64,000 nt of DNA from Alphaproteobacteria bacterium (GTDB taxonomy: Bacteria; Pseudomonadota; Alphaproteobacteria; Bin65), in NCBI GenBank assembly GCA_021776685.1, contig JAJFFJ010000068.1:1-64000 (forward strand). Reading direction: 5' to 3'. The notes beneath the pieces are model-generated. The model saw only the letters and a program-made list of their open reading frames with translations, searched no databases and was not told where the DNA came from. Shown piece by piece: positions 919 through 11,664 of this stretch. The position numbers and the translations under genes were made by a program. Each line of letters opens with the position of its first letter. Within the stretch, counting starts at the first letter, position 1.

Positions 919-1962
919 ATGGCTACTAAGAACGAATCCGTTCACGGTCAAGCGACCATCCCCGATCTCAACCAGGCCTATTTTGCCCTCAAGACGAAAG
1001 CACGCGGCATGGCCAATGAGATTCAGAAGCAGGCCGGTATCGGCAGGGCGTTGCAGACCTACGCAGAGAACGCGGAAGGTGCCTACGCCGAAAACACCAC
1101 CCGCGCGATCAAGAGTGACCTTCGAGTTTTCAAGGCATGGTGCCAGAAGAGCGGCGCGTCAGAGTTCCCGGCCACTCCGGAGACTGTCGCCGCGTTCCTG
1201 TCTGCAATGGCAGAAAAGCGAAAGCCTGCCACCCTTCAGAGATACCTTGCCAGCATCGCCCACATTCACCGGGCGGCAGGCATCGACAACCCTACTGCCC
1301 ATGAAACCGTCAGGCTTACCATGCGCCGGATACGGAGAGAGCTTGGCACCCGGCAGAAGCAGGCGCCAGGTTTGAACCGTCCGCACATTGACCGGATCAT
1401 TGAAGCCGCCGGCGACGAGTTGATAGACCTGCGGGACAAGGCCCTCTTGTCCATGGCCTATGACACTCTCTGTCGCCGGTCGGAACTGGCTTTAATGCAA
1501 GTTGAAGACCTGACCTTGGGCTTGGACGGCACCGCCCTTATCCGCAGATCCAAGACCGACCAAGAGGGCGAAGGCTCTACCCGATACCTTGCCCCTGATA
1601 CCGTGGAGCACGTCCGCCATTGGCTTGAGGCTGCCGGGATAGAGGACGGGCCGGTGTTCCGCTCCGTCAGGAAGGGCGGCAACGTTGGCAGACCGCTGTC
1701 GTGGTCTGAGACGGACCCAGGCGCTGCCGTTGCGGTCATATTCAAGAAGATGGCGGACAGAGCAGGTGTTGATCTGCCCGTATCCGGCCATTCAACCCGT
1801 GTCGGAGCCGCGCAGGATATGACCAATGCCGGGTTTGGTATTACCGAGACCATGCAATCTGGCGGCTGGAAGGGGCCGCAGATGGTGGGGCGGTATACGG
1901 AGAATCAGCGAGCGAGGCGTGGTGCGGCGGCGAAGCTGGCCGCCTTGCAGAATCGGGCTTAA
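919..1962 (+). CDS. Tyrosine recombinase / site-specific integrase
   Basis: This 347-residue protein has a SAM-like core-binding domain at about 40-135 and a catalytic domain at about 155-340. The catalytic set is visible: R186 (in CRRSEL), K212 (in RRSKTD), H291 and R294 (HSTR), W317 (GGWK in place of the usual H/W) and the nucleophile Y326 (GRYTEN). Length and motifs fit an active phage/island integrase that forms a 3'-phosphotyrosyl intermediate. It sits in an element ending in a tRNA-Thr 3' fragment, so it is the likely integrase of that element, although it lies 4.4 kb from the visible att site and probably acts with a site near the other end. The next gene starts 5 bp after its stop. 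Confidence 0.93.
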   Translation: MATKNESVHGQATIPDLNQAYFALKTKARGMANEIQKQAGIGRALQTYAENAEGAYAENTTRAIKSDLRVFKAWCQKSGASEFPATPETVAAFLSAMAEKRKPATLQRYLASIAHIHRAAGIDNPTAHETVRLTMRRIRRELGTRQKQAPGLNRPHIDRIIEAAGDELIDLRDKALLSMAYDTLCRRSELALMQVEDLTLGLDGTALIRRSKTDQEGEGSTRYLAPDTVEHVRHWLEAAGIEDGPVFRSVRKGGNVGRPLSWSETDPGAAVAVIFKKMADRAGVDLPVSGHSTRVGAAQDMTNAGFGITETMQSGGWKGPQMVGRYTENQRARRGAAAKLAALQNRA

Positions 1963-2832: not shown

Positions 2833-3147
2833 ATGAATAGATTTCGCCGTGTCGCGCCGTTCTTGATTTTAGTGTTCCTGGCGGCTTGTACAGCTGCGCA
2901 GAAACTCCCCCAAATTCGTGAGGGTATGACCCACGGCCAGGTGCGTTCGGTAATGGGCGCACCAGACGGATTTGCCCGCAGGGGTCGGTTCTCAGCCATG
3001 GAATACAAAGACCGATTGATATCAGGGTGGAGCTGGAATCGGACAGACTACGGTTTCATTTTCAAGGACGGGAAACTGATTCAGTGGGGCGCCGGTAGAG
3101 TGCGGCAGGGTGGGCCACAGACTTTGCTCCTGTACCGAATCAACTAA
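2833..3147 (+). CDS. Small BamE/SmpA-like lipoprotein
   Basis: The start at 2833 (MNRFRRVAPFLIL) is chosen over an in-frame ATG at 2818 because GGAG lies 8 bp upstream and it gives a normal signal peptide. A type II signal peptide ends in a lipobox (LAAC at residues 16-19), so the mature protein should be a membrane-anchored lipoprotein. The mature part has REGMTHGQVRSVMGAPDG, the turn typical of BamE/OmlA/SmpA domains, followed by a beta-strand region with DYGFIFKDGKLI. At 104 residues it is a minimal version. It lies inside the island, so a role in the main BAM complex is not implied. Confidence 0.75.
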   Translation: MNRFRRVAPFLILVFLAACTAAQKLPQIREGMTHGQVRSVMGAPDGFARRGRFSAMEYKDRLISGWSWNRTDYGFIFKDGKLIQWGAGRVRQGGPQTLLLYRIN

Positions 3148-3535
3148 ACCCAAGTTCAGCGTATTCCCCAGCTCGGGTAGGTCGGACCTGTGGCGGCCCC
3201 TATAGGGGTGATATTGGGGTTGACCTGCTCCGCGGCCCCGCTTTTCCCACACCGTTTCATCAGCAACCGTATCCGTCCGTAGGTACGGTCAGGTTAGGGA
3301 AATATTAGTGTGCGCCCGATCTGGGCGGCTAGGAAAAAGCTAGGATGGTTTAGTCTCCGGCGTATGCTTCCAGATGCTATGTTTTGTCAGGTTCTGCGCA
3401 GCGGTGGATGGGCGTCAAACTTTACCGAACTTAACCACCCACGCTGCGGACTGATGTGTCCGTGAGCCGTCTCCAAAACTTTAGCTTTGTTTAGTAGTAG
3501 GAGGCCGCCAAGACTTAATCGAACTTAACCGACCC
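3148..3535. other. 388-bp intergenic region with a palindrome and a repeated 11-mer
   Basis: No coding frame looks real. It contains the 12-bp palindrome CCCCTATAGGGG (3197-3208). An 11-mer CGAACTTAACC occurs twice in the same orientation (3426-3436 and 3520-3530), each inside a longer imperfect match. These may be protein-binding sites or element-specific repeats. No clear promoter or terminator is visible. Confidence 0.4.
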
Positions 3536-3709
3536 TCAGCGGAAAATGCCCTTGATCGCTGCCCGCCAATTCTGGGGAAGGTTCACCCAAACGGCAGCAA
3601 GGCACGCGAACAGAAGCAGGATTGCCAAAGCGCTGCTCGAGGCGTTGTGGATCTGGGTAGATAGAACCCCAATCGCCGCGCCTGCCTTCATGAGCAGAAA
3701 GTCCGCCAT
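3536..3709 (-). CDS. Possible 57-aa single-pass membrane protein
   Basis: The minus frame from ATG 3709 gives MADFLLMKAGAAIGVLSTQ, then a hydrophobic run LAILLLFACLAAVWV, then a basic amphipathic tail ending AAIKGIFR. This is a sensible single membrane span with a cytoplasm-type basic end. The overlapping plus-strand frame has no such logic and is taken as its shadow. A weak point is the lack of a Shine-Dalgarno ahead of the ATG. Small membrane proteins of this type (holin-like or toxin-like) are frequent in integrated elements, but no specific family is recognised. Confidence 0.4.
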   Translation of the reverse strand: MADFLLMKAGAAIGVLSTQIHNASSSALAILLLFACLAAVWVNLPQNWRAAIKGIFR

Positions 3710-3767
3710 GGGGGAGATATGGGGATTCTAACGCCCGATTTCATCCTTTTGGGTTCGTTGGATCACC

Positions 3768-4037
3768 TCACCCATCATCACCACGCCCATGCATCGGGTA
3801 GCCCTTCGCCTTCCTGGGCTCCACATCTGGATAGGCCCGCCCGGAGATGATTGCGCAGATTGATTGGACGGTCATTCCGTAGCGCTTCGCCAGCTTGGCC
3901 CGAAAACCTCTTACTGGCTTGTAGGCCAGCCTGATCTCGGCAGCGATTTCCGGTGACGCCTTCGCAGTCGCATGACGCCCTGCCGCAATGCAGTCATAGA
4001 CGTTCTGTCTCTGCGTACTGTTTGGTTGATTGGGTTC
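3768..4037 (-). pseudogene. HTH-domain open frame without a start codon (possible remnant)
   Basis: One minus frame between stops reads AEIRLAYKPVRG, then AKLAKRYGMTVQSICAI, then SGRAYPDV. This is a homeodomain-like HTH of the type found in phage HNH/terminase-associated proteins. No ATG, GTG or TTG lies between the upstream in-frame stop (4038-4040) and the HTH. An ATG in the neighbouring frame at about 4005 suggests a frameshift. It is therefore reported as a decayed gene, or as a gene using a rare start such as ATT. Confidence 0.4.
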
Positions 4038-4241
4038 TCAGGAGGAGGTGGACGTGCTTTCTCCCTGCTCGGTCCTCTCGCGTCTCTTCGGCTGGCTCCA
4101 GTCTGGTGTTCTCTCCCGACCATCAGCACACACCCAGGCAAGGGGGCCAGGAGGGCGGCAGCAAGGGAGCCACTCCCATAGTCAGACTTTTAGGTATGAA
4201 AAGCCCAGAGTTTGGGGAAGAACTCGTAACGGAACGGGGCA

Positions 4242-5483
4242 TCATGCGGCGGCCCTCAGAACGTCGTGTTTCGCCCTCGCCATTGCCTCAAGAACACGGC
4301 CTTCGTCCCTTGCCTTGCATCGGAACCCATCGTGGAGCGGGAGGACGATCCCGCCACGTCTGAGCGCGTCTTGCATCACTCGTTCGGCCATCTGCGAATC
4401 TAGATATTGAAGCCGTCCCCACGCACCGGAACAAAAGTGCTTGGCTATCGACGCGTGCCGTTCATCCACTCGAGCCGCCATCAGCCGAGCCAGCGGGTAA
4501 GCCCCTGGCCGCTTTAGGTGCTGTGCAATAGCCTTGACTGCGCTCTCGCGGGTTTCCGCATTGAGCATGATGTTGACGGCGACCTTGACGTTCTTCCGCG
4601 TCACTCCATCGGGCAACAGGCCTATGTCATAGGCTGGGCCATCCATCTGGCGACCACCAAGGGCATAGAGCATCGATGGGTGTAGCTCGGGATAGTCCGG
4701 CTCTCTGGTTGGCTCACCGTCGATCCGAATGCGGGAACGATATTCGCTGCGGGTGTTCTGCCACCATCCTCCATAAAACCTGCCGCCCAGCCTTTGACGG
4801 CTGTATCGCCATTTCCGTATCAGCGGCCGAAAGCTGGTGTTGATATGATAGTGGGCGCGCGTGCCGTCCTCTTTCAAAACCACCTCACGATAGAGCGGCC
4901 CGAACCATTCACCGCCCGGCAGGTCTATCCGAAGGTTGGCAGCTGCCAGCGCCTCGTTGAATGCGTGAAGCCGACGACGCTCACGACGTGTGCTTTCGGT
5001 GTCGCGGTAGTCCACTGGGATCTTGATTGTCCGCGTGCCAACGGTTTGGACTTCCCGATATTCAATGACCTCATGGGGCATCAGAGAGAGAAGGTCCGGC
5101 GCTACCGCTGCCAGGTATTCCAGGAACTCGGGGTGCGGATCAAACTCACTCCGATAGCTGGACACTACGCCGGGCGACGCCCTGCGATGATCAATCAACC
5201 CGCAAGCGTCGAGCGCATCCACGCAGCCAACAACATTTGCGTATGTGTAGAGCCCACGGGAGTAGCGCTTGCCGACTGCCGCGTAGTGGCTGCGATCCCG
5301 GCTGTAAAAGATAGGGCGGCCAAGGCCGATGGATTCAAGAAGGATGCCCGCCGACATGCAGCGCCTTACCAGCGCTTCTTTCTTTGTCTGTGGCGAAGGC
5401 ATGAGACCAACAAGGTCAAGTTCCTCCCGGTCTTTGGCAGCCCAGTTGAGGCGCACCGGCACGCCCTTGCGCTCGCCGATCAT
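4242..5483 (-). CDS. Uncharacterised protein with family-A-polymerase-like palm motifs
   Basis: This 413-residue protein is the last gene of a coupled operon. The start at ATG 5483 is chosen because it overlaps the upstream stop as ATGA; an in-frame TTG lies at 5492. The C-terminal half shows three motifs in the order and spacing of a polymerase palm/fingers: D263 in DYPELHPSMLY (motif A-like), R296-x3-K300 followed by VAVNIML (motif B-like) and H384-D385 in LPLHDGF (motif C-like, compare HDE in Pol I and HDS in T7 RNA polymerase). An upstream GGRFYGGWW and a basic patch lie before motif A. No exonuclease domain is apparent. The N-terminal 150 residues resemble nothing recognised. Polymerase or primase activity is inferred only; it may be a degenerate homologue. 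Confidence 0.5.
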   Translation of the reverse strand: MIGERKGVPVRLNWAAKDREELDLVGLMPSPQTKKEALVRRCMSAGILLESIGLGRPIFYSRDRSHYAAVGKRYSRGLYTYANVVGCVDALDACGLIDHRRASPGVVSSYRSEFDPHPEFLEYLAAVAPDLLSLMPHEVIEYREVQTVGTRTIKIPVDYRDTESTRRERRRLHAFNEALAAANLRIDLPGGEWFGPLYREVVLKEDGTRAHYHINTSFRPLIRKWRYSRQRLGGRFYGGWWQNTRSEYRSRIRIDGEPTREPDYPELHPSMLYALGGRQMDGPAYDIGLLPDGVTRKNVKVAVNIMLNAETRESAVKAIAQHLKRPGAYPLARLMAARVDERHASIAKHFCSGAWGRLQYLDSQMAERVMQDALRRGGIVLPLHDGFRCKARDEGRVLEAMARAKHDVLRAAA

Positions 5484-5764
5484 GACCGGCAATCCCGCCG
5501 GAGCCGTTCAATCCTGGGATGGACCTCGGGGAAGGCTTCGACCAATCGGAGCGCGGCGGCGTCTACGTCTTCGCAGCGTTCCCCAATGCAGCGCAGGAGA
5601 GTACTCCGGTAGCAGCAGTAGCTATCTCCACGCCACCCAGTGTCATTCTGGCTCTCACGGCCCTGCCGGACCTGTAGAATCCACTGCAATCGATTGAATA
5701 CGATCCGCAGATGCTCGTTCAGTTGGACAAGGACATCGCCATCGCGGTGGAGAGGCGCGCTCAT
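5480..5764 (-). CDS. Uncharacterised 94-aa protein, middle gene of polymerase-like operon
   Basis: The frame starts MSAPLHRDGDVLVQLNEH and ends RLRRDCRS. Its ATG overlaps the stop of the upstream 96-aa gene (ATGA at 5761-5764), and its own stop overlaps the start of the polymerase-like gene (ATGA at 5480-5483). This double coupling is strong support that it is real. It contains alternating helical stretches and a cysteine pair (YCCYRS). No family is recognised. Equimolar production with the polymerase-like protein suggests a shared task. Confidence 0.6.
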   Translation of the reverse strand: MSAPLHRDGDVLVQLNEHLRIVFNRLQWILQVRQGRESQNDTGWRGDSYCCYRSTLLRCIGERCEDVDAAALRLVEAFPEVHPRIERLRRDCRS

Positions 5765-6051
5765 TGGCCGGCCCCCCGCTTGGTGCCGTAACTCCGGCCA
5801 CGGGATTTGCGGTCAGGGCGGAACGGGGCCAGGCGCTCAATCAAGCCGACTTTGAAATCCGGCTCGCCGGCAAAGGCAATGGACAGGTGGAGGTCATCAA
5901 GGGCCGACGGGCCAATCTCCTGACCGATAGAGGAAGCAACAGCTTCCCAACCCCTTAGGCCGGTTCGAGTAGAGGCAACCGCTGCCCGCCACTTTGAGAG
6001 GACAGCCTCCAGGTGGGGGTTGTCAGAACTTTCCGCATTCGCTACGTACAT
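5761..6051 (-). CDS. Uncharacterised 96-aa protein, first gene of polymerase-like operon
   Basis: ATG 6051 has AGGAAG 8 bp upstream, a good ribosome-binding site, and the stop overlaps the next gene as ATGA. The product (MYVANAESSDNPHLEAVLSK) continues with a WRAAVAST...GWEAVASSIGQEIG region and a positively charged C-terminus (PDRKSRGRSYGTKRGAG) that could contact nucleic acid. No signal peptide, membrane span or known domain is seen. The operon's upstream region (6052-6318) should hold its promoter. Confidence 0.6.
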   Translation of the reverse strand: MYVANAESSDNPHLEAVLSKWRAAVASTRTGLRGWEAVASSIGQEIGPSALDDLHLSIAFAGEPDFKVGLIERLAPFRPDRKSRGRSYGTKRGAGQ

Positions 6052-6318: not shown

Positions 6319-6364
6319 AATTTGTAATCAGTAGGTCGGGGGTTCGAGTCCCTCTTGCGGCACC
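6319..6364 (+). other. tRNA-Thr(TGT) 3' half: attachment site (att) at island end
   Basis: From the anticodon loop onward the sequence is tRNA: TGT anticodon in TTTGTAATCAG, variable loop, T-arm with GGGGG/CCCTC stem around TTCGAGT, then TTGCGGC-A-CCA. No D-arm or 5' acceptor strand precedes it, so it is not a functional tRNA. The implied 5' acceptor strand is GCCGCAA. Such fragments mark the distal crossover point of tRNA-integrating elements. The orientation places the intact gene to the left of the window. Confidence 0.8.
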
Positions 6365-6588
6365 ATATTCTTCGATGGGTTGAGCCCCTCCGCGACGCCA
6401 GACCGTTAATTGCTGCCACATCGAAAAAGCCATCCGAGTCACGATGGACCGGTGCAATCGCTATTTTTTGGCTCCGAGTGCCTGACGGAATTTTCTGAGG
6501 ACTTCGAAATGTTAGAGATCAACATTCCCGCAGATTTCAAAACGGTGTCGCTGAATAGTCTGCCTGATCCCGCCAGAGGAGACGACGC

Positions 6589-8737: not shown

Positions 8738-10252
8738 CTAGTCCAGGGTCGACAACTCCCGGCGCATGACCTTGCCGGTGGACGTGGTCGGCAGCGCGTC
8801 CACAAACTGCACCATCCGCGGGACCTTATATGCGGCCAGGTGCTCCCGGCAGTAGTTGACGAACTCATCCTCCGTGGCAGAAGCACCGGGCTTCAGGACG
8901 ATATAGGCCTTTGCCAGTTCGCCTTTAACGTCGTCCAGCACCCGGCCCACAGCGTTCATCGCCACAGACGGATGGCCAGCCAATACACGTTCAATCTCCG
9001 CTGGATAGACGTTGAACCCGCCTGTCAGCAGCATGTCCTTCTTGCGGTCGACCATGAAGTAGTAGCCGTCCTCGTCAACGCGGGCGAGATCGCCCGTGCG
9101 TAGCCAATCGTCGACAATAGTTTCTTTGGTCGCGTCATCGTTGTTGAAATAGCCCATCATTACGGACGGCCCCTTGACGACGACCTCGCCCACATCGCCC
9201 TGCGGCAGGGTGATGGTGGAATCGTCCGGGTCGGCAATGCGCAGATCGAAATAGGGCATCGCCACCCCCATGGAGCCGATCTTGTTATCCGCATAGAGCG
9301 CGTGGGTGGTGCCCAGACCGGCCAACTCGGTCATGCCCCACAGCTCCAGGCACGGCGCCTGAAACTTTTCCTCGGTCTCAGCGCCTTTGGCCGCCGGCAT
9401 GGTCTGGCCGCCAACCGACAGTTTCTGAATGCTGGACAGGTCGTATTTTTCAAAGTCCGGATGCGCCAGCATCATCATGAATGCTGTGGGGACACCGTCG
9501 AACATGGTCGCCCCGTGATTCTGGATCGCCTGGAACGCCGCCACTTCGTCGAACCGCGGCAGCAAGACCAGCTTTGCGCCATACATGAAGGACGCCAGCT
9601 GGATGATCACGCCATAAGCATGGGCCGTAGGCAGCGCCGTGCAGAAGACGTCGTGGCTGTTGCGGCCATGCATGATCGAGGTCAACGCCGTATTGATGAT
9701 CAACGCCCGGTGTCGGGACATGGCGCCTTTGGGATGCCCCGTCGTGCCGGAAGTATATGAAATCTTCGCCATCGCCATGGGATCACCCGGCGCACTGTCA
9801 AAGCTGCTGTCGGCGCTGGTCAGAATATCTTCAAAGGTGGTGACTCCACTGCCGCCCTCGCCACCAAAAATGATGATGTCATCCAGCGGGGTGTCGCCCT
9901 GCACGTCCAGCAGTGATTGCTGCTTGTCGCCAGCAGCGATGATCGCACGTGCGCCGCAGTCACGGGTGACATAAGCGACCTCTTCCGGCGTCATCATGAC
10001 GTTGATCGGATTGACCACGGCGCCGGTCTTGGCGATGCCGTAATAGGCGACCAGCCACTCCCAGCAGTTGCCCGCGAACAGCGACACCACATCGCCCGGC
10101 CCAATGCCCTTGGCGGTCAGCCCATTGGCCACCTGACAGGCCATAGCGTCGACCTGGGTGAAGGTAAGTTCATTATCCTCCACAACCAGCGCGACCTTGT
10201 CGCCGTATCTCGCCGCAGCATAGCCGGTTACCTCGGCAAGTGTGCCCAGCAT
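8738..10252 (-). CDS. Acyl-CoA synthetase (AMP-forming, ANL superfamily)
   Basis: This 504-residue enzyme should activate a carboxylic acid through an acyl-adenylate to a CoA thioester. Visible motifs are the P-loop SYTSGTTGHPKG at about 165-176, LWGMTELAG, LRTGDLARVDEDGYYFMVDRKKDM (A8/hinge) and the C-terminal lysine in TSTGKVMRREL. Its size fits medium/long-chain or aryl acid ligases. It is the last gene of a run that begins with a TRAP transporter for organic acids on the same strand (71-bp gap), so it probably activates the imported acid. The substrate cannot be read from the sequence. Confidence 0.9.
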   Translation of the reverse strand: MLGTLAEVTGYAAARYGDKVALVVEDNELTFTQVDAMACQVANGLTAKGIGPGDVVSLFAGNCWEWLVAYYGIAKTGAVVNPINVMMTPEEVAYVTRDCGARAIIAAGDKQQSLLDVQGDTPLDDIIIFGGEGGSGVTTFEDILTSADSSFDSAPGDPMAMAKISYTSGTTGHPKGAMSRHRALIINTALTSIMHGRNSHDVFCTALPTAHAYGVIIQLASFMYGAKLVLLPRFDEVAAFQAIQNHGATMFDGVPTAFMMMLAHPDFEKYDLSSIQKLSVGGQTMPAAKGAETEEKFQAPCLELWGMTELAGLGTTHALYADNKIGSMGVAMPYFDLRIADPDDSTITLPQGDVGEVVVKGPSVMMGYFNNDDATKETIVDDWLRTGDLARVDEDGYYFMVDRKKDMLLTGGFNVYPAEIERVLAGHPSVAMNAVGRVLDDVKGELAKAYIVLKPGASATEDEFVNYCREHLAAYKVPRMVQFVDALPTTSTGKVMRRELSTLD

Positions 10253-10323
10253 ATATTTACTCCCTCAGCATATTTGCGCCGGATGTTACCGACGCCGTTT
10301 CGGTTTTACGAGACGCCTCTGCG

Positions 10324-11664
10324 TCATTTGAAAAGTTGTGGCAAGAAGAGCGTTAGATCCGGGAACAGAATCAGGACCGCCACCACACCCATCGCCATGG
10401 CGATAAAGGGGAGCACCGAGACGATGATCTGCTTCATCGTCGTGCCTTTTGGCGCGGCTCCCTTGGCCACGAACAGCAACAGCCCAAAGGGCGGCGTCGC
10501 CAATGATATCTCCAGCATCATCAGCGCCAGCACGCCAAACCAGACCTGGGTCGCCTGACGGTCACCAAAATCGAACTCCACCACGTCCAGCAGTTCCATG
10601 AAGATGGGCATGGTGATCATCATCATGCTCACCTGGTCCATGAAGCAGCCCAGAAACAACAGGATGGCCAGCATGGCGACGATCAGGAAAATCGGCGTCA
10701 GTTCAGCCGCCTCCACCACCGCGATCAGACCCTCTGAGGCCTGACTGAAGGCCAAAATCTGCGAGAAGGTAATCGAGCCGCAAATGATGAACAGCGTCAT
10801 CACTGTGAAGCGCAGCGTCTGCTTCACCGAGACGATGAAGTTCTGCAGGGTAAGGCGGCGATAGGCGGCAGCGGCAAGCAACGACGCCACTGCCCCCAGC
10901 GCCGCCGATTCGGTCGGCGTTGCAATGCCAGTAACGATGCTCCCCACCACAACAATGAAGATGCCCATCAGCGGCAGCACGTAGACGACGAACGGCGTCA
11001 GCCGTTCGCGCAGGGTCAGGTCGCCGATATCATAGGCAGGCGCGATCTTTGGATTGATGGCGCAGCGCACCACGATATAGCCGAAGAACAATACGGCCAG
11101 CATCAGGGCCGGCACGACCGATGCAATCAGGAGATCGCCAATGGGAATGCGGGCGACGCTGCCCAGCAGAACGGCCAATGCTGACGGTGGGATCAACATC
11201 GCAAGGCCACCTACAGCGACGATGGGGCCGATCGATATTTCCGGTTTGTAGCCGCGCTTATACATCTCCGGCAGCAGTGTCGAACTGAGCATCGCCGTGT
11301 TGGCGATGGTCGAACCAGAGAGGGACGAGAAAATCGTGCCGCCGGTGATCGCCACCAGCGACAGACGCCCCGGCACCCGCGCGATCAACTTGTCGATGGC
11401 ATCAATCGCCCGGGACGCGATTCCGGTATAGAACATGATCTCGCCCATCAGGATGAACAGCGGGATCGGCAACAACGCAAACGCCTGCACCGATTCCTCA
11501 GCGCTGCGTACCAGTTGAATTACCCCTTTCTCCCCACCCATGAAGATGAAGGCGCCGGCGATGTTTACGCTGAAGAAGGCGAAGACAACCGGCATCCCCA
11601 GCAGCATGAGGAAGACCACGCTGCCGATCAGACCGGAAATCACCCAATACCATTCGAGCTCCAT
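10324..11664 (-). CDS. dctM: TRAP transporter large membrane subunit (DctM)
   Basis: This 446-residue protein has about 12 hydrophobic segments. Family signatures include LLGMPVVFAFF near the N-terminus, SGSTIANTAMLSS at about 115-125 and GIATPTESAALGAVASL in the second half. DctM carries the sodium-coupled translocation path in tripartite ATP-independent periplasmic transporters. It starts 6 bp after the dctQ stop, and the two subunits form the membrane complex. It ends near the acyl-CoA ligase gene, likely in the same operon. Confidence 0.95.
   Translation of the reverse strand: MELEWYWVISGLIGSVVFLMLLGMPVVFAFFSVNIAGAFIFMGGEKGVIQLVRSAEESVQAFALLPIPLFILMGEIMFYTGIASRAIDAIDKLIARVPGRLSLVAITGGTIFSSLSGSTIANTAMLSSTLLPEMYKRGYKPEISIGPIVAVGGLAMLIPPSALAVLLGSVARIPIGDLLIASVVPALMLAVLFFGYIVVRCAINPKIAPAYDIGDLTLRERLTPFVVYVLPLMGIFIVVVGSIVTGIATPTESAALGAVASLLAAAAYRRLTLQNFIVSVKQTLRFTVMTLFIICGSITFSQILAFSQASEGLIAVVEAAELTPIFLIVAMLAILLFLGCFMDQVSMMMITMPIFMELLDVVEFDFGDRQATQVWFGVLALMMLEISLATPPFGLLLFVAKGAAPKGTTMKQIIVSVLPFIAMAMGVVAVLILFPDLTLFLPQLFK

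Follow-up and report, generated by a model that had tools for sequence, protein, structure and literature searches.

A divPolA2-family polymerase and an AEP Prim-Pol occupy the same cassette slot in one alphaproteobacterial genome: a candidate island primase-polymerase

In one alphaproteobacterial genome, an unrelated AEP Prim-Pol replaces a polymerase of the divPolA2 family within a matching three-gene cassette, an exchange that is new here. The divPolA2 enzyme, a 413-aa protein, is reasonably likely to serve as the catalytic subunit of a primase-polymerase specific to the island. The authors who reported the family in 2024 were undecided about its role, and this natural exchange within a single genome gives a direct and testable hint towards a primase-polymerase.

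The window, i.e., the whole stretch of DNA analysed, comprises 64,000 nt (positions 1-64,000 of contig JAJFFJ010000068.1, assembly GCA_021776685.1, Alphaproteobacteria bacterium). All three cassette genes lie on its reverse strand. The first encodes a 96-aa small protein (5761..6051), the second a 94-aa small protein (5480..5764), and the third the minimal family-A polymerase, which has an ATG start and lacks an exonuclease domain (4242..5483). Successive reading frames share exactly 4 nt, with ATGA at 5761-5764 and again at 5480-5483, in full agreement with the coupled three-gene operon of the original prediction. The 413-aa protein matches phrog_4756, a phage family without assigned function (PHROGs, E 2.9e-40). 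Searches of Pfam, NCBIfam, and PADLOC returned no family name for it, and the Pfam DNA_pol_A model (PF00476) matched neither this protein nor any of 34 family members.

Multiple sequence alignments show that the residues expected of a family-A palm are highly conserved. D263, R296-x3-K300, H384, and D385 had been proposed as motifs A, B, and C, and all stand at the positions claimed. D263, K300, and D385 are invariant in a set of 34 sequences (set A1) whose homologues are 17–31% identical to the 413-aa protein, as are R235 and R249; R296, H384, and Y285 are each present in 33 of the 34, and R223 is nearly invariant. A second set of 65 sequences (set A3) has D263, Y285, K300, N308, H384, and D385 invariant, while conservation of the GRFYGGW motif in this set is built in by the search pattern. 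As to a conserved fingers Asp, a feature of the TV-Pol polymerases discussed below, most relatives (31/36) carry the Asp of a DPY motif, in the column where the 413-aa protein has Pro283.

Structure prediction and profile alignment agree with this assignment. The AlphaFold model, built with 65 sequences, has a mean pLDDT of 82, rising to approximately 95 in the palm and fingers. Foldseek gave E-values only near 1e-3, yet all leading matches were family-A polymerases. In VIA-align comparisons spanning 231–253 residues, the model matched Bst Pol I (Z 10.5), T7 DNA polymerase (Z 10.2), and yeast mitochondrial RNA polymerase (Z 10.1). An hhalign comparison of set A1 with the host's own Pol I aligned all motifs in order (P 0.0005); the score was weaker for set A3 (P 0.023) than for the more diverse A1 because A3 was chosen on one motif. 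Conservation, predicted structure, and profile alignment thus uphold the proposed palm with motifs A, B, and C in order, and the 413-aa protein is almost certainly a family-A palm protein. The predicted absence of an exonuclease was also borne out: no such domain was found in the 413-aa protein, and its family-A matches begin only at about residue 130–160. For the N-terminal part, a PDB profile search returned winged-helix regulators only (1xma, E 0.005), and a confident model (mean pLDDT 85.8) of the first 232 residues of L102, a central relative, matched mostly winged-helix proteins at Z 6 or less. These predictions do no more than suggest a winged-helix-like region.

The alignment with host Pol I further places H268 on the steric-gate Glu position and N308 on the Tyr position, Glu710 and Tyr766 respectively in E. 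coli Pol I numbering. His occupies the first position in 62 of 65 sequences in set A3 and 26 of 34 in set A1; Asn occupies the second in 65/65 and 30/34, respectively. As read from these alignments, most of the divPolA2 family has substitutions at both sugar-gate positions (E710 to His, Y766 to Asn) that may change or loosen nucleotide choice and pose a clear biochemical question. The lost steric-gate Glu would also suit an RNA polymerase specific to the element, one transcribing genes of the island or phage in the manner of T7 RNA polymerase. Two further points would suit it as well: mitochondrial RNA polymerases rank alongside Pol I when folds are compared, and most family members have HDS as motif C, as does T7 RNA polymerase. 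Against an RNA polymerase, the position equivalent to Tyr639/Tyr766 is Asn, members found here are 400–650 aa long, and divPolA2 proteins lack a T7-like promoter-binding N-terminal domain (PMC11348598). The authors of that study left this reading open; we regard it as unlikely, not least since the corresponding slot of the second cassette described below is taken by a Prim-Pol and not by an RNA polymerase.

Judged by sequence, the 413-aa protein is a divPolA2 protein, as AUR84708 of Vibrio phage 1.063.O, the structural example of that family, was matched over nearly its full length, including the N-terminal domain. E-values, each stated for 200,000 sequences, were 2.8e-44 with the A1 profile, 5e-25 with the A3 profile, and 2.6e-5 with the 413-aa protein alone. 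The divPolA2 family was reported in 2024 in phages, beside a regular polymerase, and its authors left the choice between a repair DNA polymerase and an RNA polymerase open (PMC11348598). In the literature searched, the name was found only in that paper and its preprint. The original prediction mentioned similar unannotated proteins in alphaproteobacterial genomes; its statement that they had no described function is half right, given that the family has been reported with its function undecided. The published proteins and the 413-aa protein share an active-looking palm and the lack of an exonuclease. They differ in setting, as the former are in phage genomes whereas the latter is on a chromosomal island, with ATGA-coupled small genes and an exchange with Prim-Pol. 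They also differ in that the N-terminal globular domain of the published proteins, which have no canonical thumb, was described as being without detectable similarity (PMC11348598), whereas the N-terminal part of the 413-aa protein appears winged-helix-like.

The 413-aa protein is also likely to be a TV-Pol, a comparison that draws on the published description and one presumed member. TV-Pols were described in 2008 as nuclease-free proteins of 400–600 aa with a hairpin Arg, two catalytic Asp residues, and an RxxxK motif, and were placed in alphaproteobacterial mobile elements with recombinases (PMC2579912). The 413-aa protein has the corresponding residues (R235 as the beta-hairpin Arg, D263, D385, and R296-x3-K300) and fits the description in size, hosts, and the neighbourhood of a resolvase, integrase, or transposase; unlike in TV-Pol elements, no D5 helicase was seen beside it. 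A gene of Microcystis phage Ma-LMM01, which we infer to be the TV-Pol meant in PMC2579912, has the same motif order and Asn at K+8, with a weak sequence link (hmmsearch E 0.23, hhalign P 0.0022).

The second cassette came to light when the window's own genome was searched with the two small proteins. On contig C31, relatives of the 96-aa gene (37% identity, its one convincing relative) and the 94-aa gene (54%) are again joined by ATGA junctions and are followed by a 355-aa Prim-Pol (PF09250, E 1.5e-22). At the DNA level, the window and C31 are 72% identical over 210 bp, a stretch that takes in the end of the 94-aa gene and stops at the start codon of the polymerase. The similarity is absent over the polymerase and resumes 3' of it as a 111-bp segment (4017..4127) that shares 88% identity with its counterpart on the 3' side of the C31 Prim-Pol. 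This segment has two copies only in the genome, one in each cassette, and no RNA structure beyond shuffles was found in the conserved 3' flank. Further along, on the reverse strand, 3798..4007 encodes the C-terminal, HTH-like end of an HNH-type gene and resembles the end of a 231-aa gene in the C31 cassette (tblastx 44%); it is possibly a remnant, as its start appears lost. The C31 region is itself island-like, with the Prim-Pol, the two small genes, the HNH-like gene, and a P4-type integrase (L180, 8944-13771).

The catalytic families of AEP Prim-Pol and divPolA2 are unrelated, such that any equivalence between the two would be functional only. When non-homologous enzymes replace one another in a slot, this is a recognized sign of equivalent roles, an argument also made in PMC2579912; here it suggests that the divPolA2 enzyme starts or carries out the copying of island DNA.

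The genomic setting is that of an integrated element. On the forward strand at 6320..6365, 46 bp duplicate the 3' portion of tRNA-Thr(TGT), as expected from the proposed tRNA-integrated island; this repeat is presumed to be the attachment site that marks the right end of the island. The sole tRNA gene with these 46 identical bases is tRNA-Thr(TGT) on contig C78 of the same genome. The window begins at a contig end, and the island is split over contigs and not assembled in one piece. On C78, the intact tRNA gene has a helix-turn-helix (HTH_17) protein and a further integrase as neighbours (L165, 2927-4523), a region that probably forms the left end of this island or of one in tandem; we infer that a single island includes both C78 and the window. 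Within the window, on the forward strand, a 347-aa tyrosine recombinase (integrase) is encoded at 919..1962 (PF00589, E 1.4e-19), and directly 3' of it stands a HEPN AbiU2-like gene (1968-2654; PF18734, E 5.5e-9), which the island possibly carries as defence cargo. In the assembled portions of this split island, no helicase turned up.

The AbiU2-like gene beside the integrase is one of two points that would fit an anti-phage defence module, the other being the DNA methylase and helicase/restriction-like genes that adjoin two homologues (L001, L005). Defence genes are usual island cargo, the family is carried by phages themselves, and no member tested had a PADLOC match. Hence, of the roles originally put forward, defence found no support and we judge it very improbable, while the element-specific primase/polymerase is best supported, through the Prim-Pol exchange.

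Homologues are distributed widely. With the 413-aa protein as a tblastn query, 88 phage records, that of ICP1 included, and three plasmids were matched; as the sole query against the class it gave matches in 24 of 385 genomes, counting the window's own. The collection scan used a narrower alignment, the full set of 34 sequences proving too diverse for it. From one peptide pattern, 215 stretches were confirmed in species-representative genomes, and the 79 loci kept from this survey are mostly from marine Alphaproteobacteria. Ten further genomes from the window's GTDB family yielded no homologue, as would fit a mobile gene. Tyrosine recombinases occur within 10 kb in 45 of 83 family loci and serine resolvases in 11 of 83. 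Among the 36 loci with at least 9 kb on both sides, recombinase genes fall with distance, from 24 at 0–3.3 kb to 15 at 3.3–6.6 kb and five at 6.6–10 kb. The present analysis thus adds that divPolA2 is found widely across alphaproteobacterial chromosomes, often close to recombinases, and turns it from a phage curiosity into a common part of those chromosomes. In a quickly built tree with many long branches, used for this grouping only, the 413-aa protein groups with members from four genomes (G025, G088, G290, and G114) and one viral contig.

No conserved operon partner stood out across the family, and most members stand alone. The standalone gene close to recombinases in most loci is what one would expect of a primer-dependent gap-filling or repair DNA polymerase serving the element's integration, recombination, or repair, one of the options favoured by the divPolA2 authors (PMC11348598). 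Such an enzyme would not be expected to exchange with a Prim-Pol, normally a replication primase, within a cassette of shared small genes, and we consider a repair role improbable.

Slot exchange, together with the precedent of CCPol-MP, makes a primase-polymerase for island replication the best reading. In SCC elements, CCPol-MP combines a family-A polymerase with a small protein and is proven to prime DNA (PMC7581432). CCPol-MP and PolA-SSB (PMC7581432, PMC10061031) resemble the window cassette in that, within a mobile element, a family-A polymerase without a proofreading-type exonuclease role is coupled with a small protein. CCPol-MP differs in being a Firmicute family that descends from Pol I; its partner has an OB fold, and its operon includes a helicase, whereas none was found in the assembled portions of the window's island. 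In the proposed mechanism, the family-A palm and fingers, without an exonuclease, would copy a single-stranded template during island replication, while the winged-helix-like part at the N-terminus, together with either or both of the coupled small proteins, would assist in holding the template or start site. The 413-aa protein would accordingly polymerize DNA and could start without a primer, with the small proteins as putative accessory factors. We counted in favour of this role the conserved motifs, the predicted palm, the recombinase-rich setting, the tRNA repeat, the Prim-Pol exchange, and a 94-aa relative ahead of a Pol I-type polymerase in another genome; against it, we counted the lack of small genes beside most family members, the lack of a helicase in the assembled island, and the distant relatives of the 94-aa protein that have no polymerase neighbour. 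Phages with divPolA2 carry a separate replicative polymerase (PMC11348598), which makes a replicative role there doubtful.

A survey of gene neighbourhoods, as originally proposed, recovered a relative of the 94-aa gene at just one other family member, in genome G088, where the two are ATGA-coupled; the partnership is therefore not a family-wide feature. The present analysis adds that, in another genome (G195), a 94-aa relative lies upstream of a PF00476 Pol I-type polymerase with two genes between them. More distant relatives occur in prophage-like regions, where no polymerase adjoins them. The view of the 94-aa protein as a partner of divPolA2 only was rejected on account of its occurrence with other polymerases and in prophage-like regions. 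A weak match of the C31 94-aa relative to phrog_154, "replication initiation" (E 0.02), was set aside. Tentatively, the 94-aa protein, perhaps with the 96-aa protein, might be a priming or template-holding subunit for divPolA2, AEP Prim-Pol, and Pol I-type cores, with islands swapping the polymerase and keeping the accessory subunits; divPolA2 might then be a primase that belongs to neither the DnaG nor the AEP family.

Several loci of the family have features of their own. In two members that share a clade (L001, 5173-11245; L005, 5629-11216), a DNA methylase and a helicase/ResIII-type gene come after the polymerase, an arrangement like that of type III restriction. A single contig of genome G114 (C14; L025, L033) carries at least two identical-scoring divPolA2 copies, separated by about 9 kb, as well as a third, partial one, and the contig of L070 has two family members (3087-5018 and 9947-11533), the first split into two open reading frames. 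Finally, gp100 of ICP1 (L003, 7020-8687), a hypothetical protein of this well-studied Vibrio phage, is a member of the polymerase family.
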